Assembly (NCBI GenBank): GCA_009784345.1
Contig: WRBW01000006.1
Location: forward strand, 1-43,946
Reading direction: 5' to 3'
Length of the DNA stretch: 43,946 nucleotides
DNA from: Coriobacteriia bacterium
Lineage (GTDB): Bacteria > Actinomycetota > Coriobacteriia > WRKU01 > WQUG01
The position numbers and the translations under genes are program-made. Below are positions 33,988 through 41,152 of this stretch, one piece after another (the stretch's first letter is position 1; every line of letters begins with the position of its first letter). The notes below the pieces were generated by a model. It saw only the letters and a list, made by a program, of their open reading frames with translations, did not search any database and was not told where the DNA came from.

Positions 33988-34064
33988 CTCACACTTGATG
34001 CGGAATCTCTCACCACCTGTGTCATCCCGCACTTGATGCGGGATCTCGGGTTTGACCTTGACCT
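33988..34064 (+). repeat. Palindromic intergenic repeat, copies 2 and 3
   Basis: Two units share CACTTGATGCGG(A/G)ATCTC: a degenerate one at 33988-34012 and a good one at 34021-34048 with stem ATCCCGCA/TGCGGGAT. The latter is followed by TTGACCTTGACCT exactly as at 786-836. The 3' end reaches the stop codon of the ZIP gene. Confidence 0.65.
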
Positions 34065-34975
34065 TAAATAATCGCAATAAATATAATCGCAACGACAATT
34101 CCTGCCAAGGCTGCCATAGCAGGCATACGGTCCTTGTTGGTCACGATGGTCTGGGGGAAAATCTCACCCAGTACAACATAGAGCATCGCACCACCGGCAA
34201 TGGCCAAAGACAGTGCCAGCGCAAGCGATGATATGCCCCCTATGAGCACACCCAGGACAGCACCAATGACGGTAGTGGCACCTGCGGCCATCGTCAGCAG
34301 TATCGTCTTAATCTTTGATAGTCCGCCCGAAATCAAGGGTGCTGAAATCGCCATACCTTCAGGAATGTTGTGCAGTGCAATCAGCAGGGCAATGGTGATG
34401 CCCAGTGCAATGTCGTATTGTCCTGCAGCACCCATGGCAAGACCTTCGGGGATGTTATGAAGTGCAATAGCAAAGAGGATGACAATACCTGCGCGCATCA
34501 TATTACCCTTGTTAGATAACAGCTCCTCTGCATGGAAATATTCCTCATAATTGTCATGCAAGGTGCTGTCAAGGTCAGTGGCCACTTCACATTCGGGGCA
34601 ATCTGGACCGGCCAAACTGGGGGAGAAAAGCGCACCGGTGTCATCAGGGGCGGTTACGGCAGCAATGTGTTTTTTATGCTCACGAGCCTTGCGTCGCGCC
34701 TCCGTAATGCGATCAACGACTCGGTTTAGGCCCAAGACAACCAGCACACCGATGCCCAGACCCAGGACCGCAACCCAAACACTCGAATAGTCAATGGCCT
34801 CAGGAATCAACTCCAGCAAGACAATGGCCAGCATGACGCCGCCGGCAAATGACAGAAAAACGCTGACGGTGCGTTCGCTGCGAGCACCAAAGAGTGCGGT
34901 AATAACACTCCCTAAGCCCTTTCCAGCAACACCAGCAAGCACACCCATCGTGATAATAAATAAACCCTGATCCAT
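34064..34975 (-). CDS. ZIP-family divalent metal permease
   Basis: ZIP proteins bring Zn, Fe or Mn into the cytoplasm. About eight transmembrane segments are visible, with the metal-path motifs ALHNIPEGLAMG and ALHNIPEGMAIS in adjacent helices. A variable loop of about 75 residues contains His, Asp and Cys residues (SLAGPDCPECEVATD and a DSTLHDNYEEYFHAEE region). I chose ATG 34975 (MDQGLF) because AAAGG precedes it with good spacing; the frame is open to 34999. It is divergent from a DtxR-family gene across a perfect palindrome, so metal-dependent repression is likely. Confidence 0.88.
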   Translation of the reverse strand: MDQGLFIITMGVLAGVAGKGLGSVITALFGARSERTVSVFLSFAGGVMLAIVLLELIPEAIDYSSVWVAVLGLGIGVLVVLGLNRVVDRITEARRKAREHKKHIAAVTAPDDTGALFSPSLAGPDCPECEVATDLDSTLHDNYEEYFHAEELLSNKGNMMRAGIVILFAIALHNIPEGLAMGAAGQYDIALGITIALLIALHNIPEGMAISAPLISGGLSKIKTILLTMAAGATTVIGAVLGVLIGGISSLALALSLAIAGGAMLYVVLGEIFPQTIVTNKDRMPAMAALAGIVVAIIFIAII

Positions 34976-35445: not shown

Positions 35446-35994
35446 TTAATCAAGTGACAGCTCTCCCTGTGCGGCAGATGCCTGCATCATAAGGGATTCA
35501 AAGCGTGCAATAAGACCGCGGAGCGCGTCCATCTTATGCCCATCGCTGCTGTTTGTCATCATCATAAGCTCTATTTCAAATTCAAGCCAGACATGCCTGA
35601 TTTGATCCTCAAAGCGCTGCATGTGCCGGGGACTAGTTCGCGTGTGACGAAACGATGACTTTGTCTTTGGCGCCGCGCCATCGCCGTCGTGCTTCGCCCC
35701 AAAGGCAAGGTCATCTATGGCTTGGGCAACAGCGTGCACATGCTGCATAGGCGTACGTGCAAGCTCTGACAACATTTTTCGATGGCTTTCGAGGTTGTGG
35801 CTACTCTCTTCTTTTTTTGAACCGACAGGCTCATCAAGCTCTGCCATAAGGCTTTCAAGTTGCTCCGCAACGATGCTTGCATCTTGCTTTTCATAAGGGG
35901 AGTCAGCTTCAGCTAAAGCGCTACCGCAATCACCAGAGGTGTCATCTACAGAAGAATTGGTGTGAGAAGAATTGCGACGAGAAAACGCATGCAT
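35446..35994 (-). CDS. Hypothetical protein, 182 aa
   Basis: I do not recognise this family. The first ~75 residues are Ser/Glu/Asp-rich and probably disordered. The rest is helical, with a His/Met-rich stretch (FEDQIRHVWLEFEIELMMMTN) and no membrane segment or signal peptide. AAGGGG precedes the ATG, supporting a real gene. It ends 9 bp from the converging DtxR-family gene and marks the border of the accessory island at its 5' side. Confidence 0.6.
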   Translation of the reverse strand: MHAFSRRNSSHTNSSVDDTSGDCGSALAEADSPYEKQDASIVAEQLESLMAELDEPVGSKKEESSHNLESHRKMLSELARTPMQHVHAVAQAIDDLAFGAKHDGDGAAPKTKSSFRHTRTSPRHMQRFEDQIRHVWLEFEIELMMMTNSSDGHKMDALRGLIARFESLMMQASAAQGELSLD

Positions 35995-36154
35995 GGACAG
36001 CCCCTTTTGATCAGTTGGCGGTCCAATCTAAAATGACAATTTCGATTATAAACCCTTTTGTGTTGAGCCGTCTACGTCCCCTTTTCATCTTTTGGCAAAC
36101 GGCTCTACATCATAATGCTCCACGAAGGTAAATTTCGTGAAGCTCATGTTGCCA

Positions 36155-36199
36155 CCACACCTTCGCAGGCAACCCATAGGCCACAACCCCATCAGGCAA
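36155..36199 (+). repeat. TA-island repeat, copy A
   Basis: The core CCACACCTTCGCAGG (36155-36169) is followed by GCAACCCATAGGCCACAACC and CCATCAGGCA, the same succession as in copy C at 38665-38714. It lies 40-80 bp beyond the 3' end of the TAC operon. Confidence 0.65.
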
Positions 36200-36235
36200 C
36201 GACTTTGTTACCGCAAAGCCGGGCCACACTCCGAC

Positions 36236-36685
36236 TTATTCGGACGACGCTTTTTCTTCGAGAAAAGCATCAGGGATAATCGCCGGCAATCTTATTCCGT
36301 CTTGCGAGGTAAGCTTGCTGAATGCATCTACGTAACTGCGAATTGATGAATACAGCAAAGAGATGGCATTTAAGTGGGCCCACTCTTCCGACTCCTTTTC
36401 CTTGCCCTCTTTAGGCGTGGGAACAGAAAGCTTCCCCCGCATCGATATTCTAATTGCCGCCCTGAAGGAGTGTTCATCTTCATCACCTTCGAAAGTATTT
36501 AGAGCAACATGTAAATGCTGCTGGTAAAGCACTCTATCATCATTAGGCTGTGCAGCCATTTTAGCGAAGCTCTCTCCGAGCGAAAGCCCTGGCTCCACAA
36601 GATCGTCTGGAAGCGATCTCGTTACAAACACAAAATCAGTAATTTCATATTCAATCAGCTGAGCAGGGGATATTAAATTGCTCAT
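36236..36685 (-). CDS. SecB-like chaperone of a TAC module
   Basis: The 149-aa protein has the SecB pattern: beta-strand stretches (YEITDFVFVTR, YQQHLHVALNTFEG, FRAAIRISMRGKL) and then a C-terminal helix region AISLLYSSIRSYVDAFSKLT. A Gly-containing loop and LPAIIPDAFLEE follow, where SecB has its LPPINF-type segment. In toxin-antitoxin-chaperone systems such a SecB homologue protects an aggregation-prone antitoxin. Its ATG overlaps the antitoxin stop as ATGA. The assignment rests on pattern and operon order, not on a search. Confidence 0.6.
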   Translation of the reverse strand: MSNLISPAQLIEYEITDFVFVTRSLPDDLVEPGLSLGESFAKMAAQPNDDRVLYQQHLHVALNTFEGDEDEHSFRAAIRISMRGKLSVPTPKEGKEKESEEWAHLNAISLLYSSIRSYVDAFSKLTSQDGIRLPAIIPDAFLEEKASSE

Positions 36686-37107
36686 GCTGCCACCGGATAA
36701 TCAATCGTGGACTGATAACCTGTGTCACCATCTACAGAAGTCAATCTTGGGTCTGAAGATGCTGGTACCTGGCCTGTAATATATATGGGGTGATTTGAAA
36801 AATCCAACACCTTGACTTCGATGTTCAAATTTATTTCTGAGTCGACCCCAGAAAACAGACTATCAGAGCTTACGTTGAGAGCATCAGCAATTTTCACCAG
36901 TGACTTGACGGTTAAATTTGCCTCTGGACCAATCATCTGTGAAACCGCAGCAGGGGAGACTTTGAGTCTTCTTGAGAGTTCTGCTGAGCTAACACACTCA
37001 TCGCTCATAGCATGTCTGATGCGGGCACTAATGTCTCGTGATTTATGCACATATTTATATACCCATCCACTCTTAACATTGCGCAGTGTATCTCTAAATG
37101 TCTTCAA
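36682..37107 (-). CDS. XRE-family HTH antitoxin (HigA-like) with C-terminal extension
   Basis: A helix-turn-helix occupies roughly residues 38-85 (SSAELSRRLKVSPAAVSQMIG, then LTVKSLVKIADALNVSSD). The last ~55 residues form an extension without HTH similarity, the place of the chaperone-addiction region in TAC antitoxins. I chose TTG 37107: the ideal site GGAGG (37113-37117) lies 5 bp upstream and overlaps the toxin stop region. The frame is open to 37149 with no ribosome-binding site. It should repress the operon at the palindrome 37538-37551. Confidence 0.72.
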   Translation of the reverse strand: MKTFRDTLRNVKSGWVYKYVHKSRDISARIRHAMSDECVSSAELSRRLKVSPAAVSQMIGPEANLTVKSLVKIADALNVSSDSLFSGVDSEINLNIEVKVLDFSNHPIYITGQVPASSDPRLTSVDGDTGYQSTIDYPVAA

Positions 37108-37522
37108 TTGAGCCTCCGTTCTTAATCCATATCTCGATGTCTTGGGCAATGGTCTTTGCAGCCTTCAAGTCTGAAGACTTGAATTTGTCAGTCTTTCCTC
37201 CGTGGGGGTCAACAATCCTCAGCAAAGCAATAATCGCAATAGTCTTTGTGTCAACTTGCATCGCTATGATCCTCAACGGCTTTGGACTATCCTTGTGGAC
37301 ATAGATTTCGACGAGTTTATCACCCAGCGTCCTTGTTCGCACACAATCAAAACCATATTCTTCGAGGTCACTAATAAGGGTTGCCACGTATTCTGCCGTT
37401 ACCCTTGCCTTGCGTGCAAGCTTGTCAAATTCTCTCTCTACGGGAGAGTTTCCTGCACGAGTCAAGCCGTAGTAAACACGCCTGAATCCATCGTCAATCC
37501 TTTTTAGTGGTGTCTCGGACAT
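37094..37522 (-). CDS. RelE/HigB-like toxin of the TAC operon
   Basis: The first gene of a three-gene operon, 142 aa from ATG 37522 (TTG 37534 is a possible earlier start). The second half has the RelE/HigB layout: helix (VATLISDLEEYGFD), strand pair (DKLVEIYVHKDSPKPLRIIAM), strand (IIALLRIVDPHGGKTDKF) and C-terminal helix (DLKAAKTIAQDIEIWI). In place of the HigB KKT motif it reads GGKTDKF. The N-terminal ~40 residues are additional. Toxin-antitoxin-chaperone order is that of the Mycobacterium HigBA-SecB TAC. mRNA interferase activity is inferred. Confidence 0.6.
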   Translation of the reverse strand: MSETPLKRIDDGFRRVYYGLTRAGNSPVEREFDKLARKARVTAEYVATLISDLEEYGFDCVRTRTLGDKLVEIYVHKDSPKPLRIIAMQVDTKTIAIIALLRIVDPHGGKTDKFKSSDLKAAKTIAQDIEIWIKNGGSIEDI

Positions 37523-37537
37523 CAGGGTACTCAATAA

Positions 37538-37551
37538 TAAGTTATAACTTA
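37538..37551 (-). promoter_or_regulatory. Perfect palindrome at the TAC operon promoter
   Basis: TAAGTTATAACTTA is self-complementary and lies 16 bp before ATG 37522. On the minus strand its centre reads as a possible -10 (TATAAC), so a bound antitoxin would block transcription. Confidence 0.55.
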
Positions 37552-37866
37552 ATAGTTGTAAATAGATAGCTTGGACTTAGAGCGTTTTGGTTACTCATCG
37601 CTTCTCCAACCTCACTTCATTGAAATATTACTGATATTGTATCAGAATACATTGAAGCTCACCGAAGAAAAAATTATTTTCTGGCCTATGTGTGTATAAT
37701 CGAGTCAATTTGACATTAGTGGGGGAGTTCGCCCATCGTCCCGCAGCCCTCGCTCCACCCCCACACCTTCGCAGGCTATAGGACAAATACGGATAGGAGG
37801 TCCTTTTTCTGTCAAGTTTTAGCTTTCAGCCTATTTTGCATGGACTTCGGGTCAACGAACGACGAA
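37552..37866. other. Gap between TAC and RelBE modules
   Basis: No gene is seen. It contains a perfect inverted repeat CTGATA-TTG-TATCAG (37631-37645) of unknown role. Repeat copy B is at 37721-37775. A possible extended -10 (TGTGTATAAT) is at 37691-37700. The sequence GATAGGAGGTCCTTTTTCTG near 37793-37812 has a good ribosome-binding site but no start at proper spacing. Confidence 0.5.
37721..37775 (+). repeat. TA-island repeat, copy B
   Basis: GGGGGAGTTCGCCCATCGTCCC is followed by about 17 bp not found in the other copies, then CCCACACCTTCGCAGG. It matches copies C and D except for that insertion, and it lies between the TAC and RelBE modules. Confidence 0.65.
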
Positions 37867-37913
37867 TTGACAGGCGAGGCAGAGAGGGGTTAGAATGTAC
37901 TACGTTGTAGTAC
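37867..37913 (+). promoter_or_regulatory. relBE promoter with operator over the start site
   Basis: TTGACA (37867-37872), an 18-bp spacer and TAGAAT (37891-37896) are followed immediately by the perfect inverted repeat GTACTAC-GTT-GTAGTAC (37897-37913). The position over the transcription start fits autorepression by the antitoxin. Confidence 0.8.
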
Positions 37914-37928
37914 GAAAGGGGTAGACTT

Positions 37929-38153
37929 ATGTCAAAAGTGAGCACTGCAATACGTTTTGCTCCCGAAGAGAAGTCTTGGATTCAAAAGTATGCGGACTTT
38001 CAGGGAAAGTCATTTTCTGACGTTGTTCGTGATGCAGTTTTGGAAAAAATAGAAGACGAGGCTGATCTGCGTGCCTATGATGTGGCTCTTGCCTCAAACG
38101 ACGGCACAAGCTACTCAATGGATGAAATTGACAAGATTTTTGATGGACGTTAG
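37929..38153 (+). CDS. relB: RelB-type ribbon-helix-helix antitoxin
   Basis: The 74-aa protein starts with STAIRFAPEEKSWIQKYADFQGKSFSDVVRDAVLEKI, a ribbon-helix-helix DNA-binding domain. It ends with an acidic tail (YSMDEIDKIFDGR) that would neutralise the toxin. AAAGGGG precedes the start. The toxin gene follows after 2 bp. The operator at 37897-37913 indicates autoregulation. It is close to the DUF6290/RelB-like antitoxins. Confidence 0.82.
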   Translation: MSKVSTAIRFAPEEKSWIQKYADFQGKSFSDVVRDAVLEKIEDEADLRAYDVALASNDGTSYSMDEIDKIFDGR

Positions 38154-38155
38154 GC

Positions 38156-38431
38156 ATGGGCTATCGTGTTCAGTGGTCCAATGCGGCAGTAAAAGATTTA
38201 AGGCGTCTTGATCCGCAGGCAAACCGCTTAATCAGAGCGTGGGTCAGGAAAAACCTCGAGGGCTGTGACAATCCGCGGGCGATAGCTGGCGGTAAGTCAC
38301 TTCAGGGCAGAAAAGGCGGATGGCGCTATCGAGTCGGCTCATATCGCCTTCTTGTTACCATTGTCGATGACGAGCTCCTTGTTCAAGTCGTGAGAGCAGG
38401 ACACCGTCAAGGAGTCTACAGCAAATTGTAG
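38156..38431 (+). CDS. relE: RelE-family toxin
   Basis: The 91-aa protein has the compact RelE fold: VQWSNAAVKDLRRLDPQANRLIRAWVRKNL, then GKSLQGRKGGWRYRVGSYRLLVTIVDDELLVQVVRAGHRQGVY. The basic WRYRVGSYR strand and the terminal RAGHRQGVY are the usual catalytic and rRNA/mRNA-contact positions of this ribosome-dependent mRNA interferase family. It is intact and probably functional. It is followed within 7 bp by remnants of another gene, as if the module had been placed into it. Confidence 0.85.
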   Translation: MGYRVQWSNAAVKDLRRLDPQANRLIRAWVRKNLEGCDNPRAIAGGKSLQGRKGGWRYRVGSYRLLVTIVDDELLVQVVRAGHRQGVYSKL

Positions 38432-38640
38432 GCAGCTGGCTACTATGTGCGACTCTACTATATTGGCCTCGACCGTCTTGACGACCACAATAATCGTATC
38501 AAGAACCGAGTCCAGCGCGGCGGACTAACGGCTTTGTCGAGGTGGCAAGCTACCACAAGGATCACTTCACCTTCAAGAACGGCTACACGCCCCAGTGGCT
38601 CAACGACTTCACGCGCTACCTAGCCACAGCCAAAAGCTAA
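38432..38640 (+). pseudogene. Zeta-toxin-like ATPase gene remnant 1
   Basis: The translated piece GYYVRLYYIGLDRLDDHNNR...RVQRGG (38438-38524) resembles the predicted ATPase/zeta-toxin family segment after the Walker A domain. It is joined, out of frame, to the gene's last ~37 codons (NGFVEVASYHK to LATAKS, TAA 38638-38640). The Walker A part and a central part are missing. The second piece is nearly identical to remnant 2 at 40214-40356. Confidence 0.6.
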
Positions 38641-38689
38641 GACGGGGGAGTGCGCCCATCATCCCCACACCTTCGCAGGTAACCCAAAG
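38526..38689 (+). repeat. 164-bp direct repeat, left copy (copy C)
   Basis: It is the same length as 40242-40405 with about five visible differences. It comprises the last part of the zeta-like gene, its stop, then GGGGGAGTGCGCCCATCATC and CCCACACCTTCGCAGG. Together with the right copy it brackets the abiE module. The A-like continuation CCCCATCAGGCA extends to 38708. Confidence 0.9.
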
Positions 38690-38774
38690 CGCCCAGCCCC
38701 ATCAGGCAGTATTCTGTGATTAGACCTGAAGGCCCACAAGAGGGTTTCCATCTGTTTCAATCTTGTGATTAAGA

Positions 38775-39594
38775 TCAATCTGAATTCTCAATTGTGGCTA
38801 TCAACTCATTCGCCCACGCAACGGCATCACTGAGTGATGCCAGAACCGGAAGACCTCTAGATTGATTAATATAGAGGTCTTCCCACTTTTCATTTTTCAC
38901 AATAGTGGGCGGCCATGATTGAAGGTTTCTGTATTTGAACAGCCTCATGCACGTTATTCTGAGCTCCTGAAAGTCTGAGAATTTTTCTGGAATGATGATT
39001 TGAAGATCAATTAGGTCATGCACCCGCTCGCTATTCGGTTGACTCAAGCCATGGATTTTTTGTGCAATCTGATGGCGGAGCTGCATGAATGGGACAGGCT
39101 TCGGTTCGGGAAATCCTAAGCGTTCAAAGATTGCAATGACATCAGAAGCAATGCCCCATGCGGGTTCGTCGGCATCACCAATCTCATTGTGACCAACCTC
39201 TAGATTCACTGTCAGCCAAGGCCTACTGTTGTAGGATAGTTTCACCTCAAACGGCTGTATTACATACTGGGTAGAATACCTTCAGGCTTCGCTGGCCTCT
39301 TTGTCACAACTCGACCGGTAAAGCCGTTCCATCCCTTGCTTAGCTCAGCACTCAAATCCTCAATGAATTTTTCGAGGTTACGTCCCTGAACAGTGTCCAA
39401 GTCGTTTGTAAATCTAGTTCCAGCGTCTCCGAAGCGAAGCTTGATGGCACTACCACCTTTCACGGCTCCAGAGGGGAGCATTTAGCAACAATAGTGTTGG
39501 CCATCAGGGTGCGGATTTCTAGATAGTTTCCCCCGAACTCTCGCTGAATTGCAATGTCAAGATTACGGCGACTGTTTGGCATCTTCGGTGTCAT
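38775..39594 (-). pseudogene. abiEii: AbiEii-type nucleotidyltransferase toxin gene with two frameshifts
   Basis: ATG 39594 overlaps the abiEi stop as ATGA. The reading proceeds MTPKMPNSRRNLDIAIQREF to IVAK. It then needs a one-base shift near 39481-39484, at an AAA run (one A seems lost), to continue MLPSGAVKGGSAIKLRFG and TRFTNDLD, the nucleotidyltransferase motif. A second shift near 39258-39262 restores PSYVIQPFEVKLSYN. The rest is open to 38775. The summed length of about 273 codons fits AbiEii toxins. Either the toxin is dead or the two shifts are sequence errors. Confidence 0.82.
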
Positions 39595-40121
39595 TCGCTC
39601 AGCTCTCCTAAAAGAATACTTTCTTCAGACTTCGTAATGAGTCCCTCGCGTCTCGCGTTTCGCGTGGCCTCCTCTAGGCGACTAGCCATAATGGTTTGGC
39701 GTGCTGCTCGGATAGCTTCAACAATGCTTTGAGAGGGAATGCCTTCATACTCTGTAGGAGATTCTACGTGTTTGCGCCGAATGATCCTAATAGAAGAGGG
39801 CATTTTTTTTCTGATGCGATGTGGCGTCGCAACAGTAATGTTGGCGGGATTGGTAGGTGCCAAACCATGCATAGAAATCACCGATTCTCCAAACAAGTAC
39901 GCATCGACTCCAGCAAGAGCAACAGCTTCAGCATAGGGGTCATTAGGCGAAGGAGAGTAGTGCTTGATTCGATAGAGACCATGCCCAATGCGAATTAAGC
40001 GTCCATCACGAGCAAGGCGCGATATTTCTTTATCGCTTACGCCGATTAACTTTGCTTCACTCGAGGAAATTAAGCCGTAGTTGTCTGCAGCGATTTCATA
40101 TATATTGTCGTATAGTGCCAT
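39591..40121 (-). CDS. abiEi: AbiEi-type antitoxin / transcriptional regulator (type IV TA)
   Basis: The 176-aa protein has an N-terminal winged helix: YEIAADNYGLISSSEAKLIGVSDKEISRLARDGRLIRIGHGLYRI. The AbiEi C-terminal domain follows (FGESVISMHGLAPTNPANITVATPHRIRKK, SIRIIRRKHV). In Lactococcus/Streptococcus AbiE, AbiEi represses the operon and neutralises the AbiEii nucleotidyltransferase. The gene is intact, unlike its toxin partner. Its start codon sits inside a 40-bp imperfect palindrome, the probable operator. Confidence 0.88.
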   Translation of the reverse strand: MALYDNIYEIAADNYGLISSSEAKLIGVSDKEISRLARDGRLIRIGHGLYRIKHYSPSPNDPYAEAVALAGVDAYLFGESVISMHGLAPTNPANITVATPHRIRKKMPSSIRIIRRKHVESPTEYEGIPSQSIVEAIRAARQTIMASRLEEATRNARREGLITKSEESILLGELSE

Positions 40122-40158
40122 GTCAATACCTTACCATATTGGGTGAGGTTTTGACATG
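40119..40158 (-). promoter_or_regulatory. 40-bp imperfect palindrome over the abiEi start
   Basis: Arms 40119-40135 and 40142-40158 match at 15 of 17 positions around a 6-bp centre. CATGTCAA/TTGACATG and ACCT-ACC/GGT-AGGT are the paired blocks. The left arm contains the abiEi start codon, so binding would also cover the translation start. AbiEi proteins bind inverted repeats in their promoters. Confidence 0.65.
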
Positions 40159-40164
40159 TTTATG

Positions 40165-40213
40165 CTATGATATCCTGTCGGGAGCGCAAAGCGCTCCCGA
40201 CAGGATATCATAG
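40165..40213. repeat. Perfect 23-bp inverted repeat with 3-nt loop
   Basis: Arms 40165-40187 and 40191-40213 are exactly complementary around AAA. There is no T-tract. The right arm joins directly to zeta-like remnant 2. It may be an inversion junction, a strong transcription barrier or a recombination scar. Confidence 0.85.
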
Positions 40214-40356
40214 GCGGAGCTCTGTTCAACTACGACAATGATAACGGCTTTGTCGAGGTGGCGAGCTACCACAAGGGTCACTTCACCTTCAAGAACGGCT
40301 GCACGCCCCAGTGGCTCAACGACTTCACGCGCTACCTAGCCACAGCCAAAAGCTAA
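40214..40356 (+). pseudogene. Zeta-toxin-like ATPase gene remnant 2 (3' end)
   Basis: The frame reads GGALFNYDNDNGFVEVASYH and on to a TAA at 40354-40356. Only the last ~46 codons survive. The YDNDNGF segment resembles the DNS-type motif near the end of zeta-like ATPases. The 5' side ends at the perfect hairpin. It has very high identity to remnant 1. Confidence 0.6.
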
Positions 40357-40405
40357 AACGGGGGAGTGCGCCCATCATCCCCACACCTTCGCAGGCGACC
40401 CAAAG
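40242..40405 (+). repeat. 164-bp direct repeat, right copy (copy D)
   Basis: Nearly identical to 38526-38689, in the same orientation, including the repeat core CACACCTTCGCAGG (40382-40395). The two copies flank about 1.55 kb that contains only abiEi/abiEii. Confidence 0.9.
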
Positions 40406-40456
40406 GCCATATGTCTACAAATATAGGATTTTTGGGAATGGGAATTACCTCGAATC

Positions 40457-41150
40457 AGTTGACACCTCAAACTAGTATGCTTGAATGCGTGCAAAAAGGA
40501 GGTGGGCTATGCCCAGATACGCACAAGAGTTTAAAAATTAGGCAGTGTCGCTTTATCAAAGTGGAGAATTCGGGCTTGTTAATACTGCAACACAAATTGA
40601 TGTTGCTCCAGATATGCTTAGGCGATGGATACGAGATCTCAAAGAATCAGAAACATCTTTAGACATCAACGAAAGAGAGAGGCTTCGAAGCGCTGAAAGA
40701 GAGCTAAGGCTTCTTCGTGAAGAGAACGAAATCTTGAAAAAAGCCGTCTCGTTCTTTGCGGTCGAGACCACCAGAAATAAACTATAGTATTTGCTTTCAT
40801 CGACAAAGAGCGCGGCAACCACCCGGTCTCGGTAATGTGTAAAGTGCTCAAGGTTACCAGAGCTGGCTGCTACGCCTGGAAGAAGCGAGAGCCTTCAGCG
40901 CATGCTATCCATGATAGGTATTTGAAACAAGAAATATCGAGGCTACACAGACTACATAGAGGTATTTATGGCACCCCTAGGATGCAAAAGGCTTTAGAAT
41001 CAGCTGGAGTAAATACCTCCAGGCGACGCGTGGCACACATTGTGAATGAGCTTAACCTAACGGGCAACACTGGAGGCAAGAGGAGTAAAGTCGGGCGAAA
41101 AAGCCTGAGAAAACGAAGAGAGGGCTGTGGCCTAAGACATGGTGTCAACT
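40457..41150 (+). mobile_element. Decayed, internally deleted IS3-family element
   Basis: Perfect 10-bp terminal inverted repeats AGTTGACACC (40457-40466) and GGTGTCAACT (41141-41150) enclose an IS3-type orfA with a nonsense codon and the 5' part of orfB. The DDE integrase domain is missing, so the element is about half the usual length and cannot move by itself. No target duplication is visible. Confidence 0.7.
40509..40787 (+). pseudogene. IS3-family transposase OrfA with in-frame TAG
   Basis: Starts MPRYAQEFKN after the strong site AAAAGGAGG. A TAG (40539-40541) at codon 11 interrupts a frame that otherwise continues AVSLYQSGEFGLVNTATQIDV, an IS3-type HTH. A leucine-zipper-like helix (RSAERELRLLREENEILKKA) follows to 40787. 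The TAG is probably a CAG or AAG mutated to stop. Confidence 0.82.
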
Positions 41151-41152
41151 AA
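40790..41152 (+). pseudogene. IS3-family transposase OrfB fragment
   Basis: The frame reads FAFIDKERGNHPVSVMCKVL, VTRAGCYAWKKRE and ISRLHRLHRGIYGTPRMQKAL, the N-terminal HTH_21-type part of OrfB. It stops at TAA 41150-41152 inside the right terminal repeat. The DDE catalytic domain (about 180 residues) is absent. ATG 40835 is the first in-frame ATG. Confidence 0.8.

Follow-up and report, generated by a model that had tools for sequence, protein, structure and literature searches.

Positions 36236–37522 of the window, by which we mean the whole 43,946-nt stretch of DNA from a Coriobacteriia bacterium that was analysed here (contig WRBW01000006.1), very probably form a type II toxin–antitoxin–chaperone (TAC) operon. 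Three overlapping open reading frames (ORFs) on the minus strand encode a toxin, an antitoxin and a SecB-like chaperone (Table 1), and the operon is a new, divergent member of an already known TAC type, found in the tuberculosis bacterium and in anti-phage defence. The original prediction of a TAC operon with a SecB-like protein is supported, in that neither the test of the SecB fold nor that of HigB-likeness contradicted it. The three minus-strand genes that it described do overlap, through TTG 37107 and then through ATGA, and other genomes of the class show the same order, toxin–antitoxin–chaperone. This recurrence, together with the relatives of each protein that can be detected in the class, indicates that the arrangement is more than chance. 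The toxin would be 146 aa long if TTG 37534 were used as the start instead of ATG 37522.

Table 1. Features of the TAC operon and of the neighbouring toxin–antitoxin modules, in window coordinates.
Feature	Position	Strand	Remarks
Toxin, HigB/Gp49-like, 142 aa	37094..37522	(-)	ATG 37522; TAC-toxin family membership, Gp49 (PF05973) by profile comparison
Antitoxin, 141 aa, Cro/C1 HTH domain and C-terminal tail	36682..37107	(-)	TTG 37107; HTH_26, HTH_3; GGAGG 5 nt before the TTG
SecB-like TAC chaperone, 149 aa	36236..36685	(-)	ATG 36685; predicted SecB fold and profile chain to Pfam SecB
Toxin–antitoxin overlap, 14 nt	37094..37107	(-)	
Antitoxin–chaperone stop/start overlap, ATGA	36682..36685	(-)	
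TAC-specific end of the antitoxin, roughly 27 residues, putative chaperone-addiction region	36685..36765	(-)	No counterpart in chaperone-less L074; boundary approximate
C-terminal Ala-Ala, protein end YPVAA, putative ClpX degron	36685..36690	(-)	PMC11618068, PMC8165232
Imperfect inverted repeat upstream of the toxin, core CTGATA-CAA-TATCAG, candidate operator	37626..37651	(-)	Fold z -3.2
182-aa orphan	within 35446-41152		
RelB/ParE-type pair	37929-38431	(+)	
AbiEii, in pieces	38775-39594		
AbiEi	39591-40121		
IS3-like remnant	after AbiEi, within 35446-41152		

Genomic neighbourhood

On one side of the operon lies a conserved chromosomal block that has a ZIP-like transporter and a regulator of the MntR type at its end; on the other side are glycosyltransferase genes. 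G007, a congeneric genome, has an epimerase-like gene (named by eye from its sequence) and glycosyltransferases immediately after the MntR-like gene, and the row of toxin–antitoxin (TA) modules that fills 35446-41152 of the window was not found at this place. The window TAC sits in a strain-specific array of TA modules. The chaperone was not found in G007 or in a second congeneric genome, G008 (75% complete), and the operon is therefore regarded as accessory, as TACs often are (PMC4257090).

Several genes near the operon are broken (AbiEii in pieces, together with IS3 and acetyltransferase-like remnants), a setting in which the TAC might itself have decayed or been silenced and no longer work. 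We consider this unlikely, since the three TAC frames are open, their overlaps are intact and a good ribosome-binding site precedes the antitoxin.

Successive TA modules are separated by copies of a repeat (36155-36198, 37756-37776, 38526-38708 and 40242-40424; core CCCCACACCTTCGCAGGC), two of which agree at 96% over 164 nt. These repeats include the ends of two frames, an acetyltransferase-like one (LPDGVVAYGLPAKVW) and a second one (GFVEVASYHK...YLATAKS). Integron cassettes were set aside as an account of them, given that the modules do not all have one orientation and that no attC-like site was seen by eye. AbiEi is separated from the repeat copy that comes next by a perfect inverted repeat of 23 bp whose loop is 3 nt long (40165-40213; fold z -11.9). 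At 34020-34067 the window holds a dispersed repeat of 40-48 nt (IPHQVRDD in one frame), of which about 35 copies are spread across the contigs of the same genome.

The SecB-like chaperone

Single-sequence searches of Pfam, NCBIfam and the PDB with the chaperone gave no useful match, and it has no direct match to the Pfam SecB model PF02556, which likewise missed a group of TAC chaperones in a published count (PMC4257090). The original prediction that this 149-aa protein folds as SecB was nevertheless upheld by structure prediction, and sequence profiles agree. An AlphaFold2 model, computed from the alignment given by a nine-sequence profile search of the class genomes, has a pLDDT of 77, and its elements follow one another as in SecB, the predicted monomer containing the long antiparallel sheet, long helix and short helix of the SecB fold. 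When this model was compared with the PDB by Foldseek, SecB structures came out on top (E 4e-5 to 7e-4) and after these came M. tuberculosis Rv1957 with its ChAD peptide (5mtw, prob 1.00); the TM-scores of 0.46-0.59 place the match at the level of the fold.

The sequence evidence comes from a profile of 19 other chaperones of the same class, from which the window sequence had been left out. This profile found the window chaperone at E 2e-23 and also recovered two proteins, L057 (4e-15) and L059 (2.5e-8), that lie above the cut-off of the Pfam SecB model in a separate search. Because both proteins are found by the two models, the chain of sequence relationships to SecB is closed; E. coli SecB itself was not reached directly by the profile (E 1.4). 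The chaperone also has a weak PADLOC match to PD-T4-9_C (E 0.05). A scan of genome contigs with the chaperone found no relative.

The chaperone weakly matches phrog_21664 (E 3e-4) and the toxin weakly matches phrog_34233 (E 8.5e-4), both PHROGs of unknown function, hinting at phage-borne relatives of the two proteins. Searches by tblastn, in plasmids with toxin and chaperone and in phages with the chaperone only, gave nothing convincing.

The HigB-like toxin

Direct searches of Pfam, NCBIfam and the PDB with the toxin sequence gave no usable match, and the Gp49 model PF05973 was unmatched. It had been anticipated that simple annotation would overlook both toxin and chaperone, which is true for Pfam and NCBIfam. 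Of all members of its family, the window toxin diverges most from the core profile, and on its own it matches a 12-sequence TAC-toxin profile weakly (E 0.005-0.01). When it was aligned with its closer relatives L074 and L075, the comparison with the 12 TAC-family toxins scored 58.6 (shuffled maximum 15.8), and that with a class-derived Gp49/HigB profile reached 96% probability and a score of 54.8 (shuffled maximum 23.4); the probability against the latter profile is 92% for the window toxin alone. One relative, L004, weakly matches the Gp49 Pfam model (E 4.7e-4), and every sequence in a 15-member alignment of the toxin family has Arg84 and His107. As judged by profile comparison, then, the window toxin belongs to a TAC-toxin family with a match to Gp49/HigB, consistent with the proposed likeness of this 142-aa protein to HigB.

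The AlphaFold2 model of the toxin is too poor to speak to the fold (pLDDT 54), with HigB2 (5ja8) at E 1.0, which is no significant match to RelE/HigB. It was built on an alignment (A2) in which one relative, L003, is misaligned. A match of the same alignment to protein A was rejected as a repeat artefact. By analogy with characterized TAC systems, the toxin is probably a ribosome-dependent mRNA endonuclease.

The antitoxin and its C-terminus

The GGAGG located 5 nt upstream of TTG 37107 (AACGGAGGCTCAATTGAAG) favours this codon over TTG 37149 as the start of the antitoxin. The HTH_26 and HTH_3 matches of the protein are barely above the Pfam cut-off and are accompanied by weak HigA-like matches. 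The C-terminal extension of about 55 residues that had been predicted stands if it is counted from the end of the HTH core. In an alignment with the antitoxin of L074, a locus without a chaperone gene, the first half of the tail appears to be common to both and only about the last 25–30 residues appear to be TAC-specific, a boundary that is approximate at 29% identity. In this single comparison the window antitoxin is 22 residues longer. The antitoxin tails of the related loci are otherwise unalignable.

The window antitoxin ends in PVAA, a feature absent from the original prediction. With one locus taken per distinct system, a terminal Ala-Ala is present in 22 of 32 antitoxins encoded upstream of SecB-like genes and in none of the seven from operons of this toxin family that lack a chaperone gene (Fisher p 0.001, a guide only, as the counts were compiled by hand and related genomes are partly non-independent). 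Among the other long ORFs of the same DNA, about 4 of 207 end in this way. The ATGA overlap was rejected as the cause of this ending, since the antitoxins of L004 and L034 end in Ala-Ala without such an overlap. The -VAA end is a putative example of the kind of C-terminal signal that ClpXP reads in known TACs. Inspection of the tail by eye revealed no Trp/Arg-rich (WxR-type) motif for SecB binding such as M. tuberculosis HigA1 has.

Relatives with and without a chaperone

Relatives of the chaperone were found in 10 of 300 genomes of the class by a single-protein search and in 42 of 400 sampled genomes (about 10%) with the nine-sequence profile, its own genome being counted in both cases. They often occur in TAC-like operons, and in many genomes a SecB-like gene recurs downstream of both HigBA- and MqsRA-type pairs. 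The TAC chaperones and toxins of the class escape plain Pfam and NCBIfam annotation, so that its TAC systems are probably undercounted.

In genome G266 a HigBA-type and an MqsRA-type TAC operon (L002/L014) adjoin each other convergently, and both have a SecB-like gene of their own. No TA partner was seen for the SecB-like ORFs of about 175 aa in L040, L045, L047-L049 and L053, which lie beside a metK-like gene in L047-L049 and may represent a distinct family of solitary SecB-like proteins. In L032, L033, L076 and L077 there are TAC remnants, fused or truncated, with antitoxin and chaperone pieces joined or cut, which are signs of the decay of TAC systems.

Close relatives of the window operon are found in both configurations. 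A genome of the same order carries a TAC (L075) whose antitoxin ends in IIPLAA. A genome of the same taxonomic family carries L074, whose toxin and antitoxin are both homologous to those of the window (29% identity each), whose antitoxin ends in QQWFS and which has no chaperone gene. L074 is one of a group of two-gene HigBA-like operons (with L065 and L068-L072) in which the toxin and HTH antitoxin are homologous to those of the window and which, unlike the window, have no SecB-like gene after them and no antitoxin ending in Ala-Ala. The existence of such operons implies that the toxin–antitoxin pair can presumably work alone, and the window locus might likewise be a two-gene HigBA-type pair with the SecB-like protein as a bystander, the chaperone gene being unrelated or no longer needed. 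This is very unlikely in view of the ATGA overlap between antitoxin and chaperone, the same placement of the chaperone gene in many genomes with partners of both HigBA and MqsRA type, and the longer tail and -AA end of the window antitoxin, which are seen in chaperone loci and not in the chaperone-less ones. That the protein is instead a general secretion (SecA-delivery) chaperone located by chance beside a TA pair, a reading that would suit its SecB fold and the finding of no other SecB in its genome with the Pfam model, is extremely improbable for a gene that was found in neither congeneric genome, and is hence accessory, and that has many related proteins in TA operons of the class.

Within the TAC reading, the comparison of these loci leads to a further proposal, to which we give somewhat less than an even chance. 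In this clade the same HigB-like toxin–antitoxin core may occur with or without a chaperone, the switch being a short exchangeable segment, roughly the last 25–30 antitoxin residues ending in Ala-Ala, together with the downstream gene. If true, the exchangeable-tail family would be a natural record of chaperone addiction gained or lost. The window TAC and its chaperone-less relative L074 form a matched pair bearing on how an antitoxin becomes chaperone-dependent, and the operon is useful mainly for near relatives that have the same toxin and antitoxin without the chaperone.

Proposed mechanism

We infer all the biochemical steps of the window TAC by analogy with the M. tuberculosis system and CmdTAC. 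The HTH antitoxin would bind and neutralise the HigB-like toxin and would repress the operon, for which the inverted repeat upstream of the toxin is a candidate operator. The C-terminal tail would render the antitoxin aggregation-prone, and its last residues (VAA) would make it a substrate of ClpXP. The SecB-like protein, as a tetramer, would hold this tail, so that the antitoxin could fold and survive, shielded from ClpXP. Unfolded or phage proteins would then draw off the chaperone, the antitoxin would be degraded, and the toxin would stop growth.

In the genome that carries the operon (85% complete), ClpX was not found with its zinc-finger model and ClpP was found only as a fragment, at a contig edge; both results weigh against the ClpXP step here. 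The recurring Ala-Ala end, on independent sequences, agrees with the role of trigger protease that published work assigns to ClpXP.

Comparison with known systems

The logic of a chaperone-guarded antitoxin is known from characterized systems (PMC5105189, PMC6377645, PMC11618068, PMC8165232). The anti-phage systems CmdTAC (PD-T4-9) and MqsRAC share with the window operon a SecB-like third gene. The CmdTAC antitoxin, CmdA, ends in LAA and thus, like the window antitoxin, has a C-terminus of the ClpXP type (PMC11618068). The toxins of these systems are unlike the HigB-like toxin of the window, CmdT being an ADP-ribosyltransferase and MqsR a member of a different toxin family.

The TAC of M. tuberculosis, HigB1-HigA1-SecB(TA) (Rv1955-Rv1957), has the same gene order as the window operon, a HigBA-type pair and a SecB fold, and the tails of HigA1 and of the window antitoxin both have hydrophobic residues at the last two positions. 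In contrast to this system, the window antitoxin has no visible Trp/Arg ChAD motif and ends in Ala-Ala rather than the Val-Ala of HigA1 (PMC8165232), and the window toxin and chaperone are too divergent for direct sequence searches.
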